Of a stretch of DNA of 64,000 nucleotides, positions 9,734 through 41,295 are shown one piece after another. This DNA comes from Branchiostoma floridae (lineage: Eukaryota; Chordata; Leptocardii; Amphioxiformes; Branchiostomatidae), in NCBI RefSeq assembly GCF_000003815.2, contig NC_049980.1, positions 9,141,594 to 9,205,593 on the forward strand. The letters are read 5' to 3'. The notes under the pieces were generated by a model. The model searched no databases and was not told the DNA's origin. It saw only the letters and a list, made by a program, of their open reading frames with translations. Each line of letters starts with the position of its first letter. The first letter of the stretch is position 1. The position numbers and the translations under genes are program-made.

Positions 9734-12700
9734 ACCTCCTCCAAACCTTTTTTTTTTTTTTATTGTCAATGATGAATAATAATACAGAACAACGCAGAGC
9801 CTCCATCCCTTACATATCAAGACATCATGTACATATCATGTAGCTGTTATTATGTCATTATACTCGTTATCATTTTAGTTATCAAATCATCACATCGTAT
9901 CAGTTCACCATAATATTATGTGTAACACATTATATCATATATGTAACACATTATATCATATCATTATCATAGTTTACCTCATATGTGAAAATTGGGTCAT
10001 TTACACATGTCAACATTTCAAACAATTATTATAACATTATCATCATTTTAGCATTATTATGTAAATACATCGTACCATCTTATCATATTATTATTGTAAC
10101 AAAATCAAATTAAACACAAGGTTCCCCACTTACCCCGATGCTTCTCCAGCTTTCCTCTCCGAGATGCAATAAGACATTCCGTTTTTTCAAAAGTAGATAT
10201 CAGTTTTTTAAAGGCCTGGAAGTTTATTGTTTTTAAACGTCTACACCTGAAAATGAAAACTTTGCCTAACAAAATAATCAAATTTTTTAGGGGGGTCGTA
10301 TCTTGACATGTATCTCCAAATATGATTATAAAGGGGTTAAGGTTACAGTCTATAGAAGTTTGTACTTGTAGCCAACTCTCTACCTCATTCCAAAAAGGTA
10401 CTACGTGTGGACACTCCCAGAAAACATGAATATAGGACTCTACATCATCGTTACAGAAAGAACAGGAGCTAGAATCTACCAATTTCCATATATGTAAAAT
10501 TCTGTTACAAGGTAAAAATTTGTTGATTAAACGATATTGAAAATATCTAGTACCGGGATCAATAGTGCATCTATATAAATTTGTAAATACTTCCCGCCAT
10601 GGTATATCTTTATCGAAATAATAAAACCAAGAAAGTCTAGTATTATGTGCAACACTGACCTCGTTCATGGACGTAAGAAAGTAGATATACATGCTTTTGT
10701 TGATCTTTATGTTTCGTAACCATTTATAATTTTTTTGAAAGGGCAGGCACACAAGGTCTTTCCGCTTCTCAGTGCTAAGTATTTTTTTCCATTTACCGGG
10801 AATAGCTGAAATAAGTTGTAGATATCTATGTTGGTCACAAGCATTTGGGTAGTTTATACTGAACTCATCATAAGACATAAAATTACCGTTCGGGGATAGC
10901 AAGTCATTTATGAAATAGATATTTCTATTCAGAAAAGAAGTCATACAAACAGTTTTACCATCAATGATAATATTAGAGTTTAAACAAATTACTTGCTGTC
11001 GTATATTTGCCGGCGTCGTGGGCTCTTGCTGAAATTTGAACCAGGCCATAAACACTTCAGAAAAAAATCCTTTTAAACAAAGGTTTTTCCGAAGACAACT
11101 GGTAAAAGGGAAATAAACTATGACTAAGTTGAGGGTGGAAGACTGTTACCCAAGAGGAGAACCACTCGGGATGAGAATAAAGTTTAGGCACCCATGAAGC
11201 TTTTATAGAAGTGTTGAATGCACGTAAGTTTTTTAAATTAAGTCCTCCGTTTTCAAATTCATTGTATAATACCTTCCGTGCAACTCGTTCCGGACCGTCG
11301 TCCCAAATAAAAGAAAATATCTTCTTTTCATATTCTTTGAAAAAGGAATCATTAGGGGATGGTAACACTTGAAATAAATTCGTAAACTGGGGAACCACCA
11401 AGGTGTTAATAATAACAATTTTACCATACAGGGACAAATATTTATTCTTCATAGGGCGTAATAATCTATCTAGTCTTCCCAGACGGGGTTCGAAATTAAC
11501 GTTTGTGATTAAGTTTAAATCAACAGGGATATTGATGCCTAGAAGGTCGACATCCCCGTCAACCCACTGTATCGGTAGATGGGTGGGCAAACGAAAATTA
11601 GATAACTTCAAGGGGCCTAATCGTAATATTTTGCATTTATCTACATTTAAAGAAAGACCTGAGATGTTGGAAAAACGCTCTAAATCAGACAACAAGGCAT
11701 AAAATGATTCTAACTTTGGTTCGAACGGAAAATTTGAATCGTCGGCATATTGTGATATCTTTGTAGTCTTTTCGTATATCCTTAATCCCCGTATGGAATG
11801 ATTAGACCTGATCTTAATAGCAAGCACCTCCACCGCCACGAGAAAAAGATAAGGGGACAATGGACATCCCTGGCGAACTCCGCGATATAAATTGAAGGGG
11901 TCTGAAATGTAACCATTGTTTATAACGCAACTCGCTGTTTTTTTATATAAAACCTTTACCCATTTAATTAGTTGTGGACCAAAGTTAAAGAATTCTAAAC
12001 ATTTAAACATGAAATCCCACCTCAACGAATCGAATGCTTTCTTGAAATCAGCTACAAATATTAACCCAGGTTTGTTCTCTTGATCGTAATGCTCTATTGT
12101 ATCTAATAATCTTCTAATGTTGTCGCCTATATACCTATCCTTAATAAACCCAGTCTGATCCTCTCCAATTATGTCCGTGATTACATGTTTGATTCTAAGA
12201 GATATGCATTTTGAAAGTATTCTCGTGTCACAACCTAAAAGGGTAAGCGGGCGCCAATTTCCCATGGCGGTTGGGTCCTTGTCTATGCCTTTACTGTCTT
12301 TTTTGAGTAGCAATGAAATCAATCCTTTTCTTTGAGTTTCTGACAGATATCCATTAACAAACGAATAATTAAAACAAGTTAACATAGGCTTTTTAAAGAC
12401 ATCAAAAAAATTCTTATAAACTTCTACAGGTATACCGTCAAGCCCTGGTGATTTCCCAGCCTGAAATGAATATATTGCATTTTTCAATTCTTCTTCACTT
12501 ACTAGACCTTCACAAAGTTGCTGTTGCTCGTCTGATAAACGTTTATCGTAGTCCTCGGGGAAAAAAACAGCACAATTTACATCAGAAAGAGGCATTGGAA
12601 TATCTTCAAAAGAGTAAAGTGCAGAATAAAAATTAACCTGATCAGAAAGAATGTCTTTTGGATTACATGTTACCTCACCCGAGGGCCTTTTGAGTCGTTG

Positions 12701-13627
12701 TATATTTTTTCTTGTATAATTACGGTGGATTAGATTTATAAAATATTTGGTGCACCTTTCCCCCAGCTCCATCCAACGTGATTTAGACCTTAACAAGATA
12801 CCATTAAGACGTTCATTATATAAAGATTCTAATAACTTTTGTTTATGATTTAATTCTTCTAGTTGGGCGGGTGGGGGAGAGGCGGCACTATCAATTTGAC
12901 TCTGCAACATATTAATTTCGTCAATAAGTTCTTTTTCTTTCATCAGGTATTGTTTCTTTCTCCAGCTACTAAATTTAATACAGTGACCACGAAAAAAGCA
13001 CTTCGCCGCATCCCAAACAACTTGAGGATTTGCGGTGTTGACATTATTTTCGAAAAATTCTGACATAATTTGTTTGGTCTGTACAAGAAAAAGTTTGTCA
13101 TCAAGAAGGGATTGATTAAATTGCCAGTAGCCAGGCCCTCGCGGGAAGTCCGCCGTAACAAAAGACAAGGTGATTAGATTGTGATCTGATCTGATCTTAA
13201 TTTGTGTGCAATAGAACACTTATTAACTCTGTTTAATAATGAAAAGGATATCAGAAAATAATCTAGTCTACTAGCATAGAGCCCCCGACGCCACGTATAT
13301 CGAACAACATTAGGGTTTCTAAAACGCCACACATCATACAAGTCAAATTTTCCTTTTAGCTCCGAAATAGCTTCTAGTGCGTTAGGGTGATAATTTCGAA
13401 GTCGAGCACCTGATCTATCCATGTCTGAATTCTGCACTGTATTAAAATCTCCCACCACAACTAAATGTTCATTACTAATCTCAAATGTATCTATAGCTTC
13501 TTCTAATTCCTTAAAAAAGGACGGACAGTCATCATTTGGAGCATATAAGTTCGCAAGACAAAAATGTAAATTGTCTACCTCGATGTCTAACACAATCCAC
13601 CGTCCACTTTCACCTCCTCCAAACCTT
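9734..13627 (-). mobile_element. 5'-truncated L1/Tx1-like LINE with 16-bp target duplication
   Basis: The 16-bp sequence ACCTCCTCCAAACCTT occurs at 9734-9749 and 13612-13627. Just inside the left copy is a poly(T) tract, the poly(A) tail of a minus-strand element. The body (about 9750-13611) encodes the C-terminal part of an endonuclease, a reverse transcriptase and a zinc-knuckle tail. The 5' end stops inside the endonuclease domain. The 3' UTR (9762-10104) is AT-rich with ATCAT-type simple repeats. The insertion lies about 340 bp upstream of the peroxidase start codon. Confidence 0.92.
10105..13611 (-). pseudogene. LINE ORF2: partial endonuclease, reverse transcriptase, zinc knuckle (frameshifted)
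   Basis: Three frames read 5' to 3' on the minus strand. The first (13611 to ~13195) is the C-terminal half of an apurinic-type endonuclease (LYAPND, VVVGDFNTV, SRLDYFLIS). The second (13219-11057) is a 720-residue frame with reverse transcriptase motifs: GKSPGLDGIPVEVYK near residue 255, DFKKAFDSL near 391, GVRQGCPLSPYLF near 447 and YADD near 490. The third (~11068-10105) holds the tail zinc knuckle (CSFCNDD...HVFWECPHV). Frame shifts separate them: one near 13195 (RSDQ against RSDHNL) and one at an A7 run at 11061-11067. The missing N-terminal endonuclease and the shifts make it non-autonomous. The tail favours the L1/Tx1 group. The single-base shifts could be sequencing errors. Confidence 0.9.
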
Positions 13628-29717: not shown

Positions 29718-29726
29718 GATCTGGGC

Positions 29727-29758
29727 ATAGGCGCTAGGCCAATGAATTCTTGTTGATT
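29727..29758 (+). repeat. Left terminal inverted repeat of the large transposon
   Basis: Begins ATAGGCGCTAGGCCAATGAA. It matches the reverse complement of 41256-41287 at 27 of 32 positions, with the longest identical run TAGGCCAATGA. It directly follows the left GATCTGGG (with one C between). Confidence 0.87.
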
Positions 29759-29814
29759 CGTCCGTACATTATCGTTCTGTGCCGAGTTGCCGGGTTGGAA
29801 AGTACTGGGGATTA

Positions 29815-29950
29815 CCCGAAGGTCGGGGAATAGGGCGAAGCCGACCAATCAGCGTTGGAGTTTCTGCACCCGAAGGTCGGCGAAGCCGACCAATCGGCGT
29901 AGCCGATTGTGAGCGCGGCGAAGCCGCGCAGCGAGCGAAGCGAGCTAGGT
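29815..29950. repeat. Subterminal CpG-rich hairpin cluster of the transposon
   Basis: Repeated short palindromes: GGTCGGCGAAGCCGACC, ATCGGCGTAGCCGAT, GCGGCGAAGCCGC and AGCGAGCGAAGCGAGCT. All share a GCGAAGC-type loop. Their position just inside the left end suggests transposase binding sites, though they could be promoter elements of the helicase transcript. Confidence 0.7.
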
Positions 29951-30097
29951 GGGAAAGGCCTTTTCTACTATCGCCGTTTTCTGCAAAATTCTAATATCTA
30001 AGTCAAAATTTTGAAGTGATTTATGTTCGTCGAGTTATTTGGAGGCCATTCAACGTACAAAGTGCACATAATAGTTATTTCGAATTAAAATAAACGC

Positions 30098-31141
30098 CAC
30101 TGAAATTTGGTCGATTTCCGGGACACTGCGTTACCAGCAGTGCGGCGGCGGCCGCACCACGTCGCTGCTGCACAAGATGATGACATCATTGCCAGCCAAT
30201 CAGAGATAGCACAGTTGAACTATGACCCACATTTCCCGCCGAAATTGTTCTGCAGCCAGGCTTGCGACGATTTCACCTCGACCAAATTTCTCGGTAAGTG
30301 GGCGACCCATTTGACAGTAAAATACAGTTTTCGTAACTCTTGAAGGCAACTTCGCTATTCCTTGTTGTGTAGAAAGTTCTGCTGTCCGGAACACCAGCTG
30401 CTAAAGGCAGATTCGTTATATATATTGACTAGTGTAGTGCTGGCTGTCACTGACACAGAAGGGGGAGGGGGGTGAGTTGTGATGATTTTTGGCGGGAGAT
30501 ATATCATTTCTTTTGTCTGACTCCGTGTAAATGTGAACGGAGCTTCTCTAAAAGACCGTTAACTTGTATTATATGTAATGGGGAAAATTTAAGTTGTGAC
30601 ATTAACGTTACGAGTTGTCCAAAATGTAATTTTTGTTGTGTCGTTCTGGTTGCAGAAACCAAGGACGTTATATCAGGTCCTTGCAGAAACACAGTACCAG
30701 ATCCAAGATGCGGTGTTGATCGGCTTGGAGGCAGGTTTGCTTTAGGTGGCAGTAGTTTAGGTAGTTTAGTATGTAGAATAGAACACTGCTAGTGTTAGTT
30801 AATGTATTGATTCTTCTTAATGATAGATTTTCGACTGTTCCTTTGGGTTTTCGGTCATATTGTCATGGAAATGTAAACTTCTAGTTTCTACAGTAGAAAC
30901 AGGGTTGCCACAATGTGTTTCTGAAACCATTTTTTAACAGTACATTTCCTACTGTGACAGTTTTTTCATATTCGTTATGGAAATGTTATTCTGAAACCAT
31001 TTTTATCTATAGATTTTCAACAGTTTTGTTCAGATGTAATTTCTAATGTAAATTAGTTATAGTAGAAAACAGGGAGAGGGTTGCCATGATGTGATTCTTG
31101 AACATTGTTTGATATAGGGACAAAATTGGGCCCGCTGTAGG
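30098..31141 (+). promoter_or_regulatory. Presumed 5' leader of the helicase transcript
   Basis: A good donor TCTCG|GTAAGT at about 30295 and an acceptor CCGCTGTAG at about 31140, directly before the helicase ATG, suggest a spliced non-coding leader. A cysteine-rich open frame at 30472-30792 (CIICNG, SCPKCNFCC) has no ATG, and a second possible acceptor (GTTGCAG) interrupts it near 30656. It is not called a gene. Confidence 0.4.
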
Positions 31142-34100
31142 ATGGCGTGTTTGTCGGAAGAGCAGCGCCATGTTTGTGACCTTGCCAATGAGTATAACAT
31201 TTTTATCACTGGTCGGGCGGGCAGTGGAAAATCAGTTGTCCTAAGGCAAGTGATTGCAAACATGGAAGCGAGATTTGGAAAAGAAGGTGTCGCTGTAGTG
31301 GCCCCGACTGGGAAAGCTGCACTGCTTATAGATGGCAGAACAATTCACAGTTTTTTCTGTTTGGGATTGGGGCAGAAAGAGGCTAGTGTCATCTACCAGC
31401 AGGTTTTGGCAGATAATGCATCTTTCCTGCGGATCCAGCAGGTTCAAGTTTTGATCTGTGATGAAGTTTCAATGCTGAGTGCCTCTCTGTTCAGCAAAGT
31501 AGACAGCCTCCTCAAACTTGTGAAAGGAAACAGTCTGCCCTTTGGGGGTGTCAGGTTGGTCCTTGCTGGGGATTTTTTCCAACTCCCCCCCATTGATAAG
31601 AGGGATGATCACACTCCTGACTACTGCTTTTTGCAGGAATCATGGCAAAAGGCTGTGGACCTGTGTGTTTTTCTGAGTGGTGTGTTCAGGCAGGATGATC
31701 CAAAATTCTTAGAGATGCTGGAGCACCTGAGACTTGGCCGTCGTACACCTGCATGTCTGGATCTGTTGGAGAACTTGACTCGGCCAATCCCCAAAGTAGA
31801 TGTCAGACTTTACTCATTGAAGCAAGACATGCACGTGTACAACCAGCAAAAACTGGACCAAATGGAGGGTAGTGAGAAACGTTTTGCTGCCCAGGACATG
31901 GGCAGAAAAAAAGGCAACCTTGATTCCCTATGTCAGGCTCCTTTTGTACTCTGTCTCAAACCTGGTGCCCCAGTTGTACTCCTCCAGAACTTATTTGACA
32001 TTTCACCAAGACTTGTCAATGGGTTAGGAGGAACAGTAAGTGGGTTTTCTAATGGTCATCCTGTGGTAACATTTGACACAGGAGAGACTCATACCATACA
32101 ACCCCATATGTTTGGTTTCTATGACAATGGTCAGTTGATTGCTGCCAGGCTGCAGTACCCATTGCAGTTAGGGTTTTCAATGACCGTACATAAAAGCCAG
32201 GGTAGTTCCATTCAACATTTGGAAATCGCAGATGTCCACATGTTTGCTCCCGGGCAGCAGTATACAGCGTACACAAGGGCAACATCACCCAATACGTTAC
32301 GTGTACTGCCAGGCTACAACAAGTATGCTCTGAAGCCACACACACATGTAATACATTTCTATGAGTCCTCTGTTCGTCTCCTGGCAGACTTGGTGACTCC
32401 AAGAGTTTCCAAGTCTATTTTGTCAAGTACCCCAGTTCAGGAGAGTGTAAGTGGACCCAGTGATAATGTTGATGTTACTTGTGTAAGGCATGAGCAAACA
32501 TATGACCCCATCCATGTCCCAGATGGGTATGACACTAGAAGTATTCTGCATTTATTCAATGAAGATGTAGGTCCATTTCCAAACCTGTTGAACTATGTAG
32601 CAAACTTGGACCCCAACAATGAGGGCATCCAATCTATGGTTGCGTACCTAATCTTCAGAACTGAAGAAATGTTCTCTGATGGGGTAACAGTTGACAAGAA
32701 GAAGGGGGTTGATGTAATCCCAAGAAAGGCATTTACGTCACACATTTCAAAGATCTTGACCATTGTTGATGAACAGGAGACGCGGGGTAGATGGGGCCTC
32801 ATCTCCAGTACTATACCTTCAGAGGTAGCCAACACTCTCCTCAATAGACTAGTAACTGTGATTTACAAACATGTGGCTAAAATCAGAGACCCTGTCTCAG
32901 AGATGAAGGAGAAGTTGGAGGGAGAGCTACAGGGTATTCAACCTGACACAACCCATTTTGACATGTCCAAACAAAACTGTGGAAAGGTGAGATATTTGAT
33001 GGGGTGGGCAGTATTCCGTCTCATAGCAAACCTAGACACAGAATTGAAGTCTGCACTTAAGACTGCAGCTAAATCTTCTGGAGCAAATGAGGCCAAGATT
33101 GCTGAATTAAGGCAAATGAAGGCCCTCTGCTGTGCTTTGAGAGCAGATCACGCTACACTGCAAGTCAAGTCCAGATTTCCATACAGCCTGGAGCATGTTA
33201 ACCGAAAGAACAGAGGTGGACTTTTCTTCGTAAACGATAACCTGTTTCTGTTTGGAATGTCCCTCGAATCCCTTTGTGGCAAACTGTTCAAAGTCGAAAC
33301 TGTTGACATTTTGGGGAAAGAAGCCACAATGATTCTTTCGGGTATTGTGAAGAACAATGCACTTTTGAAAACATTATTCCTCCAGTACCTAGACCAAAAC
33401 TACAGTCCTGCAGTACATATTTCTCTGTCACACACTCCCATTCCTGTACCTGACACAATTGAAACTAACTCCAGTTCGCCTTTTGGACAGTCTGAAACTG
33501 GACCACATGTTGACAGTGACACAATTGAAACTATCTCCAGTTCTCCTTTTGGACAGTCTGAAACTGGACCACATGTTGACAGTGACACATTTGAAACTAT
33601 CTCCAGTTCTCCTTTTGGACAGTCTGAAACTGGACCACATGTTGACAGTGACACAATTGAAACTAACTCCAGTTCGCCTTTTGGACAGTCTGAAACTGGA
33701 CCACATGTTGACAGTGACACAATTGAAACTATCTCCAGTTCTCCTTTTGGACAGTCTGAAACTGGACCACATGTTGACAGTGACACATTTGAAACTATCT
33801 CCAGTTCGCCTTTTGGACAGTCGGAAACTGGACCACTTGTTGACAGTGACACAATTGAAACTAACTCCAGTTCGCCTTTAGGACAGTCGGAAACTGGACC
33901 ACATGTTGACAGTAACACATTTGAAACTAACTCCAGTTCTCCTTTTGGACAGTCGGAAACAGTCAAGGAGAAGGTCTATGAACGCATCATAGAGAAGTAT
34001 TTGCACATGAGGAACAAAGAGTTCTTGAGACCTTTGATGGAGAAATTAAACACACATAAGGAGACTGCGCTGCGCCCTGCACTACAGGCACAGGCAAAGA

Positions 34101-34714
34101 AAAATACACAATTGACTTTCAGAACATTCTTGGATGACAAAACTGACAAAAAAGACTTTACACATCTCCACCTGAAATCACTTGCTACCAAAGGGGTGGA
34201 CAGTTTCACTATCTTCACAGTAGTACAACTAAAGCTACTCTTATTCTGTTATGGGAAGGCCATCAAATCCCAGAGTAAAGAACACGTTAAGAGTATGCTA
34301 TGTGAAGAAGTGAGAAAAAATGAACACATGCTGTACCCTGATGAGCTGAATTCAAAAAATCTAGACATCATCAAAAAAGGTAATGTACCCAATGCGGCCA
34401 GTCAGTCTGTTGAGAGCCAGGGCTCAGAGGATAATGATTTGCAAAATATGCAGTCCCCAGAAGGAGCCACTCCAGGTAATGAAACAAACCAAACTGCGAC
34501 ACAAGACACACATGCCATTCGTCAGCGGGCCCGAAGGTTTAATCCATCACATGAGCAACTTGAAACGTTGACACAGGACCACATTAATGGCAACCCTGTC
34601 TGTTTACACCAAGTTAGAGCTAACCAATTTGGAGTATTGCCATCACAAATAAAACGGTGGCACACTTCATTCAAAAAGAGGAACACAGTAGCTAGAACTG
34701 AAGGGAATTCATAG
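31142..34714 (+). CDS. PIF1-type DNA helicase of the transposon, with internal repeats and C-terminal homeodomain-like HTH
   Basis: Single-exon frame of 1190 residues. The N-terminal ~400 residues are a complete PIF1/RecD-family superfamily 1 helicase: Walker A GRAGSGKS (24-31), GKAALLIDGRTIHS (~57-70), Walker B DE (107-108), GDFFQLPP (143-150), MTVHKSQG (~347) and AYTRAT (~376). It would unwind DNA 5' to 3' using ATP, as known for the family. A middle region of unknown fold (~400-770) follows, then eight 22-residue repeats (~771-941), a charged region, and a final segment (~1130-1187) ending in QIKRWHTSFKKR, which resembles helix 3 of a homeodomain. The ATG follows a splice acceptor directly. 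Inside the transposon it probably aids replication or processing of the element; this is inference. No frame disruption is seen. Confidence 0.92.
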   Translation: MACLSEEQRHVCDLANEYNIFITGRAGSGKSVVLRQVIANMEARFGKEGVAVVAPTGKAALLIDGRTIHSFFCLGLGQKEASVIYQQVLADNASFLRIQQVQVLICDEVSMLSASLFSKVDSLLKLVKGNSLPFGGVRLVLAGDFFQLPPIDKRDDHTPDYCFLQESWQKAVDLCVFLSGVFRQDDPKFLEMLEHLRLGRRTPACLDLLENLTRPIPKVDVRLYSLKQDMHVYNQQKLDQMEGSEKRFAAQDMGRKKGNLDSLCQAPFVLCLKPGAPVVLLQNLFDISPRLVNGLGGTVSGFSNGHPVVTFDTGETHTIQPHMFGFYDNGQLIAARLQYPLQLGFSMTVHKSQGSSIQHLEIADVHMFAPGQQYTAYTRATSPNTLRVLPGYNKYALKPHTHVIHFYESSVRLLADLVTPRVSKSILSSTPVQESVSGPSDNVDVTCVRHEQTYDPIHVPDGYDTRSILHLFNEDVGPFPNLLNYVANLDPNNEGIQSMVAYLIFRTEEMFSDGVTVDKKKGVDVIPRKAFTSHISKILTIVDEQETRGRWGLISSTIPSEVANTLLNRLVTVIYKHVAKIRDPVSEMKEKLEGELQGIQPDTTHFDMSKQNCGKVRYLMGWAVFRLIANLDTELKSALKTAAKSSGANEAKIAELRQMKALCCALRADHATLQVKSRFPYSLEHVNRKNRGGLFFVNDNLFLFGMSLESLCGKLFKVETVDILGKEATMILSGIVKNNALLKTLFLQYLDQNYSPAVHISLSHTPIPVPDTIETNSSSPFGQSETGPHVDSDTIETISSSPFGQSETGPHVDSDTFETISSSPFGQSETGPHVDSDTIETNSSSPFGQSETGPHVDSDTIETISSSPFGQSETGPHVDSDTFETISSSPFGQSETGPLVDSDTIETNSSSPLGQSETGPHVDSNTFETNSSSPFGQSETVKEKVYERIIEKYLHMRNKEFLRPLMEKLNTHKETALRPALQAQAKKNTQLTFRTFLDDKTDKKDFTHLHLKSLATKGVDSFTIFTVVQLKLLLFCYGKAIKSQSKEHVKSMLCEEVRKNEHMLYPDELNSKNLDIIKKGNVPNAASQSVESQGSEDNDLQNMQSPEGATPGNETNQTATQDTHAIRQRARRFNPSHEQLETLTQDHINGNPVCLHQVRANQFGVLPSQIKRWHTSFKKRNTVARTEGNS
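33454..33966 (+). repeat. 66-bp tandem repeats within the helicase gene
   Basis: About eight 66-bp units encode the 22-residue motif SDTIETNSSSPFGQSETGPH plus VD. Variants IETN, IETI and FETI occur in the order N, I, F, N, I, F, then N, F, so a 198-bp three-unit block was itself duplicated. All units stay in frame. The antisense open frames here are by-products. Confidence 0.97.
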
Positions 34715-34900
34715 GTGCTAAACAATAGTAGAAGCAACAATACCTGAGAAACATGTTAATTTTGGAAATACCGCCCTTTCCAAAAATACATTTCATTTCT
34801 TAATCTTATTTACATATATACATGTAGTACATTTTTGTAAGCCGCTTCGCTCAATTGACAGTATTGATATGGAACATATGAGAAAAGTCTGCAGAAGATG

Positions 34901-35321
34901 TACATGTAGTGGGCAGTTAAGCTTACAATTGTACTAGACTATAGATAATCTGCAGATTTAACTTTTGATGCTAAGTGCAATATACATGTATGTGACTTGT
35001 CTCTTAGTCACAGATAACATGTGCCAACCTATAAACTCAGGAAATTCTACTTCATTGTGACAACACATTTAATTGATTTGTTGTTAATTCACTGTGTAAC
35101 TATTTTCCATTGTATTGTACATGTAGTGGGCAGTTAAGCTTACAATTGTACTAGACTATAGATAATCTGCAGATTTAACTTTTGATGCTAAATGCAATAT
35201 ATGTCTCTTAGTCACAGATAACATGTGCCAACCTATACACTCAGGAAATTCTACTTCATTGTGACAACACATTCAATTGATTTGTTGTTAATTCACTGTG
35301 TAACTATTTTCCATTGTATTG
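34901..35321. repeat. Tandem duplication (217 + 204 bp) between the convergent genes
   Basis: Unit 1 (34901-35117) and unit 2 (35118-35321) both begin TACATGTAGTGGGCAGTTAA and end CCATTGTATTG. Unit 2 lacks about 13 bp in the middle. They lie where the two transposon genes' 3' regions meet. Confidence 0.93.
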
Positions 35322-35456
35322 AGCTTTTAATGTTATAACTTTTAGAATAAGATAAGTGGGTTTTTGACGAATGTGAAAAACAAACCCATTGAGTACTGTA
35401 GGTGTATTGAAGTACTAGAGGTGGAAGTCTGTGTTTTGCTTGAAAATGTTTTTGAC

Positions 35457-38400
35457 TCAGTACTTTCTGGATGCATTGCCATTCCGGACCTTGAACGAGC
35501 GGCAGTGGATGTATCCATTGACAGATGGACCTGTGTTAGAAAATGCAATGTAACAGATTAGTTTGTAGCTTACATGACAACATAGTTATGGACACAATTA
35601 GATATTATTTGAATTACTTCTCTTTAACTAGTTTAATAATAGAAACTCTGCCACCTTAAGAAACATCTGCCTCCTATAGCTATTGACACTGAAGAAACAG
35701 GTAAGAAAGTTCATTGTGACTTTCATTGTAGTACATGTAAATGATAAAACAGAAAGACAAAATGTGAAACATAGAAGCTGAAATTGACATGAATTTCTGT
35801 GGTTTAATCAGGCTGGTGAACCTATAGAGAGCACAGTTCTTTTTACACAAACAAAAAGTGTACCACTTAATGCAACACAAACATTGGCTCTGTGAATTAT
35901 ACAGCTGTATTGTAGAAATTATTAAACATTAGACAACAATGATAACGGTCATAATTGTGATAATGATGGAGTATATGGTAGTAATTATTTTACCTACCAT
36001 ACTGTAAAACAGTTGGGTTGGTGTTACTTCCATTGGACGCACGTACACAACCAAACATATTTTCCAGGGCATCTTGGTTGGTGCTGGCAGAGATAACCCC
36101 CATCCCAGGAAACTGGGCTGTCATGGTGCGGATGTATGATTTGTAACCCAGTACCATTGAGCAGAGGTCAAAATGTAATTTGTCCGAAATGAACGATTTG
36201 TTTCTTTCCTTTGCCGTTAGGTTCTCACGTTCTTTTACTTCCTCTTCCCAGTCTAGAAACCACTGAAGTGCACCGTCGAGTTGAACCAACCTCGGATCAT
36301 CCATTGTTCTAAGTACACAAGATAAAAGACAATCAACAAGAGCAAATGCAAACAAAGCCAGGTAGGTTGACTCTCTTTTCTATGACGGGTATTAAGCGCA
36401 TTGCTACACATACATGCTTGCATAAGTAATTATAGGTAACAACTTCATTATGAGTACTTATAGAGTCAGACCGATGAAAGGCCTTTTGTTGTTGTAATGG
36501 GTAGAATGTACAAAAAATGTATCGTGCTCATACAGTTATGGAAAAAAATCTGAATCAAGTCAGTGAAGGAAATCATTTGCCAATTTCGACAATTCATGAA
36601 ATGAAAGACCTTGTGATGATGTGTAATAGAAGCTTTCTAACCTTATAGGCTTGGTGTTTGCAAATGTCTTCACAAACACATTAGCTGCAGACAGGTACTG
36701 CCGGGTTGCACTCATTGAGTCAGCATCTCCATTCTTGTCTTGCTTAAACTCCTGGTAATTCTAAAGTATAAGGGCCGGAGTAGAACATGACATTTAGAAA
36801 ATATTTTGACATAAGTACACGTACAATGTCGGGGCTATACCTGCTCTAGTGCAGGTGACATTCAAAATTGTCTGGACCAGCACCTCTTCTTTTCTTTCTC
36901 TAAACAAAATGAACTCCTTAGAATTATTTTCACAAAGCAAAGATGCAGATGGGAAACTCACGTCCAACAATTCAATCATGCCGTCACTGAAAATGTCAGA
37001 TGCTAGATGGTTGCGCATCCGTGTGGCTGGGGTTAGCAGAAAGTGTTGGTCCTTGATCCTGCAGGAGGTCACTGGCGCCCTCGCATTGGTCTTGTCGTGC
37101 AGGTACGACTCCTTGAGATGCGACCAAAGGATGTGCTTTCCGCTAACTTGGAAGCATCTCGCTGAACCTGCCATGGTGCTCTTCTCCAGGTTATTTCGTA
37201 GCTTTTTGATGTTGTGCTGAAAATATATAACATGCAAGGACTTAGTCTTTAAAGGATAGAGTTACATATACCTAAGTTAGGAGTTTTAAATAAGCCAAGG
37301 GATTGCAGTTATATGTCAAAAGTCTGCCATCATTGTCAACATGTACATGTTGTGTACATAGCATGTTCAAGTAATCCCTGCATAGTTAAAAGACTTACTG
37401 GTGGGTCCATGATGAATGAGTAGTTCCCCTCCCCGTAGATGTTGTCTATGCTGAACTTCCTTGAGATTGCATCTTCTTTCGACTCAAAATGTCCCATGAT
37501 GAAGTCACGATTGGCCTGCCCACCGTCACATACACAAGCATGGGAGAAGAAGCGGTACTGCTTCAGGTAAAACACACTGTCCCAGTGGCTCATGTATATG
37601 TTGATTGGAGCGATTTCCGTTGTTGGATACCACGCAAAGGGGAAGAAGAAGCCCTCGCATCCCTTGAAGGCCACCTGAAAGACGTGGGTGGCCATCTCAG
37701 CCTTTTGTTCGCCTGCAAGTAACGTAATTGAACGAAAAAAAATTATTATGTGTATATTTCTCGTAGTCAAGTACAAATTTGATGAGTTGATATTAGGTAA
37801 CCCAAAGCAGAGGTAGTTAGCCTGGGTATCAATTTATGCCCAATATTCCAAAGGAAAGAGACTTCTGCTTATCCAGAAATCAACAGAGTTAATTGAAAGC
37901 CTTACCAGCAGTCTGAAGTGATTTCATGCTGTGGTAAAAGTCTCCCAGGTCCACAAAGCCTGCAATTTCAAACTCATCTCCCACTCGACGCAGCTGGACA
38001 CTTCCCTGATATTATCAGTACAAAAAAAACAAACTTTTAGTTAGCAAAAGTGCCTGTAGTCATAGACATGCACAAATACCTTTTGATAATAATATATAAA
38101 TGGTTGTAAGGCAACACATAACATTAGCATCAAGGACATTCTGTTGAAAATTCATGAAAGTAAGAGTTGCAGCAAATTACATAAAATACTCTAAATACAT
38201 GTATGGTTATTTTCATATAGGCTTTCCAAATGTGAATTGTCATGTGTATTTTAAAACAGAAAAGTCACCCACCTGTATTTTCATCTCGTCAAAGACAATG
38301 AACCCATGCCGCCCTCTTTCAGTCACCCCTTGTTCCTCAGCCTCTTTGTCCATCCACTTCAAGACTTCTGTGTGTAATCCTGGCTTCTGATTAACTTTGT

Positions 38401-40958
38401 TCTTCTTGTATCGCAGAAGTCTCTCAGATGGCAGCTTCAGGAATCCACTGTTTTGAAGGTCTGCGTAGCCCTGCTTGCTCCGCTGCCAGAGTTGAAGACA
38501 GACGTCCAAGAACCTGAGGTATGGAATAGATTCTGTTAGTTTTGTTTTCACACCAAGGATTAGAAACTTGTGTATGTACATGGTAAGTCAGTAGAAATGT
38601 ATTTAAGTGACAAAAATAACTGTTCATGACAAAGGACCATTTTCTGAACCTGATATATGAAATCAGTTAGAGTCAATATGTCCTTCAAAACCATCAGCTT
38701 GACACACACTATGAGTTACATGGAATGAAAATGTGAAGGGACTACCTATTTTTCCTTCTTCCTGTCTATATCTACTGTTCATTTATACTGATCTCTTGTT
38801 AAAAAATCTATTGAAAATATGAACGGATATTGCTTCATACAGTGTGTAACATGATAAGCCAAAGAATGAGTCTTGATACTAATTGAGAAATAGTTTCTAA
38901 GCAATATGATAACAATGAGAACTCACTCTGTATTCCATTCGTTCCGCTTGTTCTGGACGTGGTCTCTCTGAATTGTCCACAGGAGCCTCTTTCTGTGATC
39001 GTTTGGAAACAGTTTGGCCACATTGTCATCCATTGTATTAAAAATCTCAGTAATGTCCTTGTGATCTTCCTTTGCTAGCCGTACAGACTCTTTTAAGCTG
39101 GCGTACCTTGCTTTGTAATAGTCAGTTCTATCTTCCGATCTTACTCGTCTTACTTGTTCTTGATTGTACTTCTCCTTCTTGTCTTGTTCGCTTAGATAAT
39201 CCCATCTTGTTTTTTTTGCAGGAACCTGGGGGATGTCACCAGACGTACGTTTCAGTTTCTCTCTTCGCCAGCGGGCCTGCTTTACCGCAGACCGCAGACT
39301 TTCGCATTTTGTGCAGCGAGTGACCTTTGATCCCGCAAGGGCAGGAACCAGCTGGCTGCATTGGAGAGATCTCAGGATCTTCTGTGGTTCCTCTGATCCC
39401 TCACCGGAGACAGATTCGGTCACAGCCTTCAGTGCTGGGTATTCTGTTGAAGTGTAGATGTTGCCTTGTAGACCCTCACATGCAGGGATATTGCTGATGT
39501 GTTTGAGGATACTTTCAAAGTCTTCGATACTGCTAATACGATCAGTCATGCCCAACTTTGTCAGATTTATCTGCACACCATTGTACGTGGCAGATATATC
39601 GAGGGAGTCAGTTATAGTCAATACTCTGCAGGGCTTGAGGCCGTTGATGAACTTGGGTTCCACCTTGTAGACTTGAACTGAATTGTCGAACTTGTTGGCA
39701 CACCAGGTTCTGGCATATTCCCCATTCCTGACAAACTCCAGTAGGTGGCCAGTTGTGACTGAAGATGTACATGTTGATGAATCAAAAGTGGGGGAGATGT
39801 TCTCCTTGTTGTCAAACTTGAACAGGTTGAAGAAGAATGATGTGGAAACTAGTTAAGGTTAAAGAGTTGAGACGATTATGTATATAAAAAAAACGTTATT
39901 TTTGTTAATTTAGTACCTTAAGATACAAAGACACTATATCAAAGAACAACCTAAGAAACAGTGTATCTATAGGTAGAGTTCACACAAAGAAATGTTATTT
40001 TTGCACCTGTATCTATAGCACCATATTGTTAAATGTTGCATGCACAAGTTGTCTTTATCAAAGACATTTATTTTTTTAACTTTATAGTTATATAGCTATA
40101 GTTATATAGCAACTTGGCAGTGCATTAGAGTCAGGTTTCTAGTTTATGAAATATATGTCATATCAGTAGCTGAATGCCTGTTGGAGATATAGTTGTAAAT
40201 TATGTTCTGTTGAAGTTTTGGAAAAAGTTTTTTTCACATATATTTATACAAGAGAGTTTATATTTGTGATATTTATATATTTGTTCATTAAAAAGTTTCA
40301 AAGAAGTTTATTTTAGTCACTTCTTATAGCATATTCTCACTCATTCCCATCAATAAAAAAAAGTTTACACGATTTAGATGACATCTCTAATCTAACAATA
40401 TACAACTGCATATCATCCAAGGATATTTTAGGCCATCGACGGTCTTCAGTCTTTTCTTGACCACAGTAGGGAAACACTCCTTGATGGCCCTCCCAAAATG
40501 CTCCATGGAAATGCCATCTCCGTACGCTGTGCAGTATGTACTGTAGGCATCCGAGACCCTCACATGGTGTCCATCTTTTTGGCCAAATATGTTCCTAATC
40601 CTAAAAAATAAAGAATTATCAGACTGTAAATATAGTCACATTTATTTACGCCACCCCTCCACCCCCCTCCCACAAATGACTCGTCGTAAAAAAAACGCAT
40701 CGGTAGTTTATTTACCAAAACGCTGGCACTAACCACATGTAATCGTTATACTCATCGATGCATTATTCTTGTAGAACGGTCCATACTCGCTAAAATGCCA
40801 TCTGTTTCACGAGATCTGTATTCCTAAGGAGGTTGGTATTCCTATCTCAGTTCTTACTTCCGGGTTGGCGACGTTACCGATCACGAAAATCAGACGAAAG
40901 CAGTGGAAAAAACACGGTCAAAACGTACCTGCAGTGCAGCGTAGCTTTTGTCAGCATG
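35457..40958 (-). CDS. P-element/THAP9-like DDE transposase with an N-terminal RFX-like domain (10 exons inferred)
   Basis: Minus-strand exons inferred, 5' to 3': 40958-40930, 40600-40407, 39848-38927, 38513-38273, 38005-37906, 37712-37399, 37216-36821, 36760-36642, 36308-35998, 35530-35457; about 899 residues. The transposase core shows P-superfamily landmarks: LPSERLLRY then FDEMKIQ (Asp ~457), GFVDLGDF, CVCDGGQANR (Asp ~558), DPPHNIKKLRNNL, LTPATRMRNHLA, and NQDALENMFGCVR (Glu ~854) before NPTVLQY. These supply the expected D-D-E residues. Exons 1-2 (~1-73) read as an RFX-like winged helix (FGRAIKECFP, KKRL) rather than the usual THAP finger; a CxxC follows in exon 3 (CTKCESL). Weak points: exon 7 ends at an unusual donor (GTGTAC) because the stronger GTATAG breaks the frame, the exon 2 donor is weak, and the last exon is one of several options. 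Confidence 0.85.
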
Positions 40959-41075
40959 TTGAAACCCTTAAACTTCTCAAATAGTACCACGAAAACCGAC
41001 AAGGCGCCTAAACGGGCCCGCCGTACGATCCCACACCACAACACAGATCGAAAACACGGTAAGTGGTAACTCACA

Positions 41076-41255
41076 TCAGGGAGACCGGTTGCTTACCCAT
41101 CCAACATTTAAACTTAGGGGGAAGGCGGCGCAAAGGATGACGGGAAATACTCGCGCTAAGGATGACGGGAGCATCTGACGACGTACTTCCGGATAGGCGG
41201 TAAACGGCGCACTCATGTTACCGCGGCAGACAGCGCGCGCGGTAGGGTTCCTGTC
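41076..41255. promoter_or_regulatory. Right subterminal region of the transposon
   Basis: Contains the direct repeat AAGGATGACGGGA twice (about 41134 and 41158) and a CpG-rich stretch between the transposase start and the right terminus. P elements carry transposase sites in this position; the role here is inferred only. Confidence 0.45.
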
Positions 41256-41287
41256 ACTCAACAAAAACTCATTGGCCTACCGCCCAT
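41256..41287 (-). repeat. Right terminal inverted repeat of the large transposon
   Basis: Reverse complement begins ATGGGCGGTAGGCCAATGAG. It pairs with 29727-29758 at 27 of 32 positions and is followed directly by the right GATCTGGG copy (41288-41295). Confidence 0.87.
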
Positions 41288-41295
41288 GATCTGGG

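Follow-up and report, generated by a model that had tools for sequence, protein, structure and literature searches.

Can a cut-and-paste transposon of the P superfamily carry, besides its transposase, a helicase of its own? This question is raised by an element of 11,563 bp (positions 29726–41288) within a stretch of 64,000 nucleotides from Branchiostoma floridae (contig NC_049980.1, positions 9,141,594 to 9,205,593 of the forward strand), the whole of which is called the window here and supplies the coordinates used below. An earlier note, made from the sequence alone, had described at this place a complete transposon pairing a P-type transposase with a PIF1 helicase. We observed inverted ends, duplications of the target site, two genes with open frames, the catalytic motifs and shorter copies with the same ends. 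On balance, we regard the element as an apparently intact, potentially autonomous P-superfamily cut-and-paste transposon with 7-bp duplications, in which a resident PIF1 helicase of the cellular kind may serve in gap refilling.

The ends of the element form inverted repeats of 31 bp with 27/31 matches (87%) and exceed in length all other inverted repeats listed for the region. The left repeat (29726–29756, plus strand) starts with CATAGGCG and the right one (41258–41288) with CATGGGCG on the minus strand; the termini thus begin with CATAGG and CATGGG, that is, with CA as in the P superfamily. Immediately outside lie two copies of ATCTGGG (29719–29725 and 41289–41295), and ends and duplications together bracket the full 11,563 bp, in keeping with the complete element proposed earlier. 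The earlier note had given ends of 32 bp with 27 matches and an 8-bp duplication (GATCTGGG). Inverted ends and the number of matches stand, with repeats measuring 31 bp, but the duplication is 7 bp long; its apparent eighth base is, on the right, the terminal G belonging to the element and, on the left, a G that precedes the duplication by chance. In the 513-Mb assembly (431 contigs), the terminal 20-mer was present at 118 places with at most one mismatch (both ends of one copy counted apart, the 11.6-kb copy included) and its reversed pattern at none, which argues that the ends are not a product of chance. Searches with the ends resulted in at least 45 left-end and at least 41 right-end match rows, again with the 11.6-kb copy included. 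Eighteen further copies of the ends were fetched (L002–L008, L056–L066), and both ends were recognised by pattern in 14/18. An exact 7-bp duplication is present in twelve of them, L004 agrees at 6/7 positions and L060 has none (2/7); the other four (L059, L061, L063, L066), with ends unrecognised by pattern, were left unscored for duplication. Over 14 duplications, including that of the 11.6-kb copy, the majority consensus is GTnnnAC (G 9/14, T 12/14, three mixed positions, A 10/14, C 7/14), a palindromic preference as found with the 7- or 8-bp duplications of the P superfamily.

None of the 18 other copies matches the interior of the element or the transposase (0/18 each); they are non-autonomous, with a length of 0.4–1.6 kb where measured, and include shorter derivatives with identical ends. 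The earlier note had made its idea depend on whether copies of the termini ever contain the helicase: all 18 fetched copies lack it, yet the transposase is equally unmatched there. The left region common to the non-autonomous copies covers 29726–30164, reaching element position 414–439, and the right one covers 40671–41288, where the roughly 1-kb copies diverge over the last ~20 bases. Deletion junctions fall at element positions 286/11375 (L060), 214/11374 (L062) and 197/11381 (L064) in three copies, whose arms are 97–98% identical to the 11.6-kb copy, and at 414/10946 (L002 and L004), 414/10963 (L003) and 439/10956 (L005–L008) in others. Since the deletion points differ among the short copies, it appears likelier that the interior was lost more than once than that a short element received one late insertion of 10.5 kb. 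The roughly 1-kb copies may represent a sister family, because they differ from the 11.6-kb copy in the last ~20 bases of the right end.

Between the ends, the helicase gene on the plus strand (31142–34714) and the transposase exons on the minus strand (about 40600–35994) converge, as had been noted before. Seven body exons of the transposase (38927–39816, with one CxxC noted by eye and an alternative 5' border at 39848; 38273–38513; 37906–38005; 37399–37712; 36962–37216; 36642–36760; 35994–36308) and six introns, all with GT-AG borders, give one open frame of 744 aa. Both TNP-like RNase H models of Pfam pass on the spliced frame (PF21787 with 28.4 bits at a cut-off of 24.6; PF21789, located in the exon 35994–36308, with 32.0 bits at a cut-off of 24), where TNP in the model names presumably stands for P transposase. 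The sole PDB match at E ≤ 1 was the Drosophila P transposase, a weak one (E 0.035); two pieces aligned with the P transposase, neither significant alone, include the first catalytic D and the last E. In the spliced frame, FDEMK (371, exon 38273–38513), CDGG (472, exon 37399–37712), DPPH (513, straddling the junction of exon 36962–37216 with the preceding exon) and NQDALEN (717, exon 35994–36308) provide D, D, DxxH and E in this order, following the motif rule of PMC9587614 and PMC4168063; the second D was located from the range of the Pfam match and by visual inspection. We therefore class the protein as a P (TNP-like) transposase with an RNase H-like DDE site, in agreement with its earlier description as P-type. 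Upstream of the body, an exon at 40406–40600 (minus strand; 3' border uncertain, GT donor absent at 40406) encodes an RFX-like domain. Two joined exons match PF02257 with E 7.9e-5 and 23.6 bits, below the cut-off of 27, and the single-sequence structure model of the RFX-like exon has a mean pLDDT of 58.7, too weak to rely on; because of this score and this model, the suggested RFX-like domain is a lead rather than a finding. The joining of this exon to the body is tentative, as are the first coding exon (40929–40957, minus strand, from an ATG of uncertain start to a GTACGT donor) and a possible terminal coding exon (35629–35687, minus strand), which has a pyrimidine-rich acceptor and a short frame to a stop.

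The helicase gene consists of one exon encoding 1190 aa, and its match to PF05970 (E 8e-34) bears out the PIF1 helicase that had been placed inside the termini. Its motifs are GRAGSGKS (residue 24), DEVS (107), HKSQG (350) and AYTRA (376). The first 420 residues scored 201–240 bits with seven PDB chains named ATP-dependent DNA helicase PIF1, 85–149 bits with other PIF1-like chains and 61 bits with Helraiser. In a midpoint-rooted tree with long branches, the helicase grouped with the host PIF1 gene (support 100/100) against eight PIF1-domain genes of the same genome, which are presumed Helitron helicases. For this tree, nine PIF1-domain genes were picked from 21 loci (L018, having no frame with the cutting motif, was left out), and the host PIF1 at C15:16.605 Mb was represented by seven exon pieces joined by hand (285 aa). 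By scores and tree alike, the PIF1 core is closer to cellular PIF1 than to the helicases of Helitrons. We therefore rejected a Helitron origin; the helicase is not of the kind known as Helitron cargo, to which the earlier note had referred. Pfam matched no Rep domain in the 1190-aa protein. Helicase and host PIF1 share 36% identity over 303 aa, and the helicase gene is intronless, in contrast to the host gene, whose matches are spread over separate exons. Within the helicase gene, a 66-bp (22-aa) unit is repeated 7.7 times in frame (33451–33960, plus strand), and the C-terminus of the protein (34490–34711, plus strand) is predicted to be helical with a possible helix-turn-helix, at low confidence (mean pLDDT 62.0, a single-sequence model that is likewise too weak to rely on). 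A scan that detects close relatives only confirmed no viral relatives of the helicase or of one transposase exon.

How does this element compare with known systems? P elements make 8-bp duplications and normally encode the transposase as their only gene. The Drosophila P element and zebrafish Pdre2 share the transposase fold family with our element, and the ends of Pdre2 likewise start with CAT (CATACCTG, beginning CATACC), but both have 8-bp instead of 7-bp duplications according to PMC10983969, from which the word helicase is absent. Closer in this respect is Galileo, a P-superfamily transposon of Drosophila. As described in PMC4168063 and PMC2775673, it has a DDE transposase with D(2)H, many non-autonomous copies and mostly 7-bp duplications, whose consensus GTANTAC/GTATTAC resembles the GTnnnAC majority of the present family. 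In contrast to the present element, with its 31-bp ends and a suggested RFX-like domain where no THAP was found, the Galileo transposase has a THAP domain (PMC4168063). The word helicase is absent from PMC4168063, and the helicase mentioned in PMC2775673 is a host gene near an inversion breakpoint and not a component of Galileo. Helicases do occur in other DDE transposons: KolobokH and Kolobok-1_CCri encode one, in Kolobok-1_CCri on the complementary strand, but they belong to another superfamily, with TTAA duplications and RecQ instead of PIF1 (PMC9587614), and AcademH is a lineage of animals and fungi defined by its encoded helicase, but again of another superfamily, with 9- or 10-bp duplications (PMC10045372). 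By duplication length and transposase family, our element belongs to neither. Helitrons and Helentrons also have a PIF1-family helicase within a transposon, as part of Rep-helicase; the present element differs from them in its inverted ends, its target duplications, the lack of Rep among the helicase's Pfam matches and the helicase scores given above. A helicase inside a DDE transposon is hence already known from KolobokH (RecQ) and AcademH (PMC9587614 and PMC10045372). The pairing of PIF1 with a P-type transposase is unreported in the literature searched, which comprised the beginnings of abstracts among the matches listed, with Repbase and most subscription papers outside; among the matches listed in separate searches for an RFX domain paired with a transposase, there was likewise no such report.

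When a cut-and-paste transposon excises, closing the resulting gap falls to the host, and PIF1 acts in strand-displacing repair synthesis. In the mechanism we favour, the RFX-like domain would bind the element ends in place of THAP, and the transposase would excise and insert the element via its RNase H-like DDE site, as is expected from the superfamily. The PIF1-type helicase would then move the repair D-loop and help to fill in the 11.6-kb gap at the donor site, with the sister or homologue as template, and gap repair stopping early would give rise to internally deleted copies. P elements leave a double-strand gap whose repair is not always efficient and often results in defective copies (PMC4168063). 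By analogy, the deletion derivatives of the present family are of the kind left by such inefficient repair, and the possession of a helicase would therefore not make repair safe. More tentatively, and with clearly less confidence than in the reading as a whole, the element may represent a separate branch of the P superfamily, in which THAP was swapped for an RFX-type DNA-binding domain and a cellular-type PIF1 was permanently adopted as a repair or replication factor, letting a long element restore itself after excision. A transposon with its own PIF1-type helicase would offer a direct test of whether a transposon can control gap repair. The P superfamily would also join Kolobok and Academ as DDE superfamilies with a helicase-bearing lineage, which suggests helicase acquisition as a recurrent solution.

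Next, we considered traces of the two genes elsewhere in the genome. A DNA search with the query 30150–40670 resulted in 41 rows, the self-match not among them. Most (26/41) lie within 321 bases of the query's start, adjoining the left end; 13 match the helicase region with 77–97% identity (12 on C6 at 20.04–27.57 Mb, one on C10), and two match the transposase region with 74 and 76% identity, both inside the same C6 interval. Only one of 50 PIF1-domain matches listed lies in this interval. The earlier proposal of a distinct P-like group with a travelling helicase has as its basis one intact copy together with decayed pieces of both genes in the C6 interval. A genome search with PF21787 gave three loci (C19:10.31, C11:17.08 and C6:14.99 Mb), with no PIF1 within 3 Mb by coordinates among the 50 PF05970 matches listed; as the window's own split domain was not recovered by this search, other intron-split P-type relatives would be missed as well.

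Two loci stand apart from these. At C18:13504707–13505342 (L040/L045), an open frame of 231 aa is 50% identical to one transposase exon and is perhaps a domesticated piece; the 20 kb retrieved around it gave no match to the rest of the element. On C12 (L055, 14418000–14427999), two decayed tandem units each contain a PIF1 helicase remnant akin to the helicase of the element (48% in the better one), with the transposase unmatched at E 1e-3 and chance-level matches only at E ≤ 1.

Several observations weigh against the reading as a transposon with a resident helicase or qualify points in its favour, among them the common C6 interval, the paired remnants at L069 and the codon-position excess. Both genes are intact in a single copy only in the searches made, the remainder being decayed pieces, and the ATCTGGG of this copy deviates from the GTnnnAC consensus of its family. 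THAP was unmatched at the thresholds used in the exons and in the minus-strand frames upstream, where a split THAP in unrecognised exons is possible; we therefore speak of a P-type transposase with a different N-terminus and not of a typical P element. The role assigned to the helicase derives solely from the kind of protein it is. With the differing identities given above (77–97% for helicase and 74–76% for transposase pieces), the remains need not be one lineage. The naive chance of both transposase pieces falling in 7.6 of 513 Mb is 2e-4, for an interval (~7.5 Mb) that was delimited around the matches after the fact. It is also rich in family ends (6/100 places listed vs ~1.5 expected), so that the co-location may only reflect the survival of old repeats. 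The only second sighting of both genes together is at C6:20.037 Mb (L069), where remnants of the transposase (protein E 2.5e-11) and of the helicase (E 2.8e-15) are separated by 46 bp; these E-values come from a search of five loci, the genome-wide DNA match of the transposase having E 2.1e-4, and the remnants are rearranged and share one coding direction, while the genes in the window are convergent. In the seven helicase pieces compared with the window, 62, 57 and 100 differences fall on codon positions 1, 2 and 3, and 52, 45 and 74 without L049 and L053, which are copies of L054 and L050 (chi-square p 0.018). This excess at third positions points, if only mildly, to past selection for the helicase protein, given that L047, L051 and L052 partly overlap and L052 alone has no excess (15, 10, 12). 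Finally, P ends were found in 0/9 helicase loci examined out of the 13 matches (L047, L049–L054, L069, L070; 2–20 kb fetched), and two pairs of decayed helicase loci (L049/L054 and L050/L053, on C6 and C10) lie within longer repeats common to the loci; the borders are identical in L050 and L053. It looks as if other repeats had captured these pieces or carried them along in duplication.

These points bear differently on the alternatives. Had a single P-like element captured a PIF1 copy of the host type and carried it along as a passenger with no role in transposition, one would understand the single intact copy, the grouping with the host PIF1 gene and the intronless frame, as a captured retrocopy might have. 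We consider this rather unlikely, since the helicase is only distantly similar to the host PIF1 (36% over 303 aa), retains an open frame of 1190 codons and is represented by at least 13 decayed DNA matches, with the mild third-position excess; distance, open frame, decayed matches and excess together suggest an old, repeatedly copied gene rather than a recent pick-up. An insertion of a different, helicase-bearing mobile element into a P element would account for the absence of P ends from all nine decayed loci and for the two pairs of loci in longer common repeats. This absence made the nested insertion somewhat likelier and the reading we favour somewhat less so; the earlier note had asked whether the helicase occurs alone with different termini of its own, and such termini were not seen but may exist, with P ends lacking at all nine loci. 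We still judge the nested insertion improbable. Inspection around the helicase revealed no additional terminal pair accompanied by a duplication, and remnants of both genes lie side by side at L069. The inverted repeats 31128–31155 / 34505–34532 (82%) were rejected as the ends of such an element, as one of the arms terminates within the gene and the flanking sequences differ.

The remaining two alternatives concern the element as a whole. PIF1-family helicases act in strand-displacement synthesis, and the helicase might accordingly drive a replicative or peel-and-paste mode, with the transposase merely cutting the ends. Other DDE superfamilies do have helicase-bearing lineages (PMC9587614 and PMC10045372), but the 7-bp duplications, like the DDE and DxxH motifs, agree with ordinary cut-and-paste, and we regard such a mode as very improbable. 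That the ends of a short non-autonomous family bracket two genes by chance would agree with the other fetched copies, which are short and without interior match. This is already strongly disfavoured and hardly credible to us: identical 7-bp duplications border the whole 11.6 kb, one of the bracketed genes is a P-type transposase, and the short copies differ in their deletion points. The reading as a P-superfamily transposon with a resident helicase thus remains the one we prefer.

Two further features of the window were recorded. Between the convergent genes, a direct duplication (34899–35332) consists of copies ~200 bp apart with 95–99% identity and is apparently recent. Outside the element, at 10105–13219 on the minus strand, two neighbouring frames match RVT_1 (E 3.3e-33) and zf-RVT (E 5.4e-8) and probably belong to a retrotransposon of the non-LTR type.

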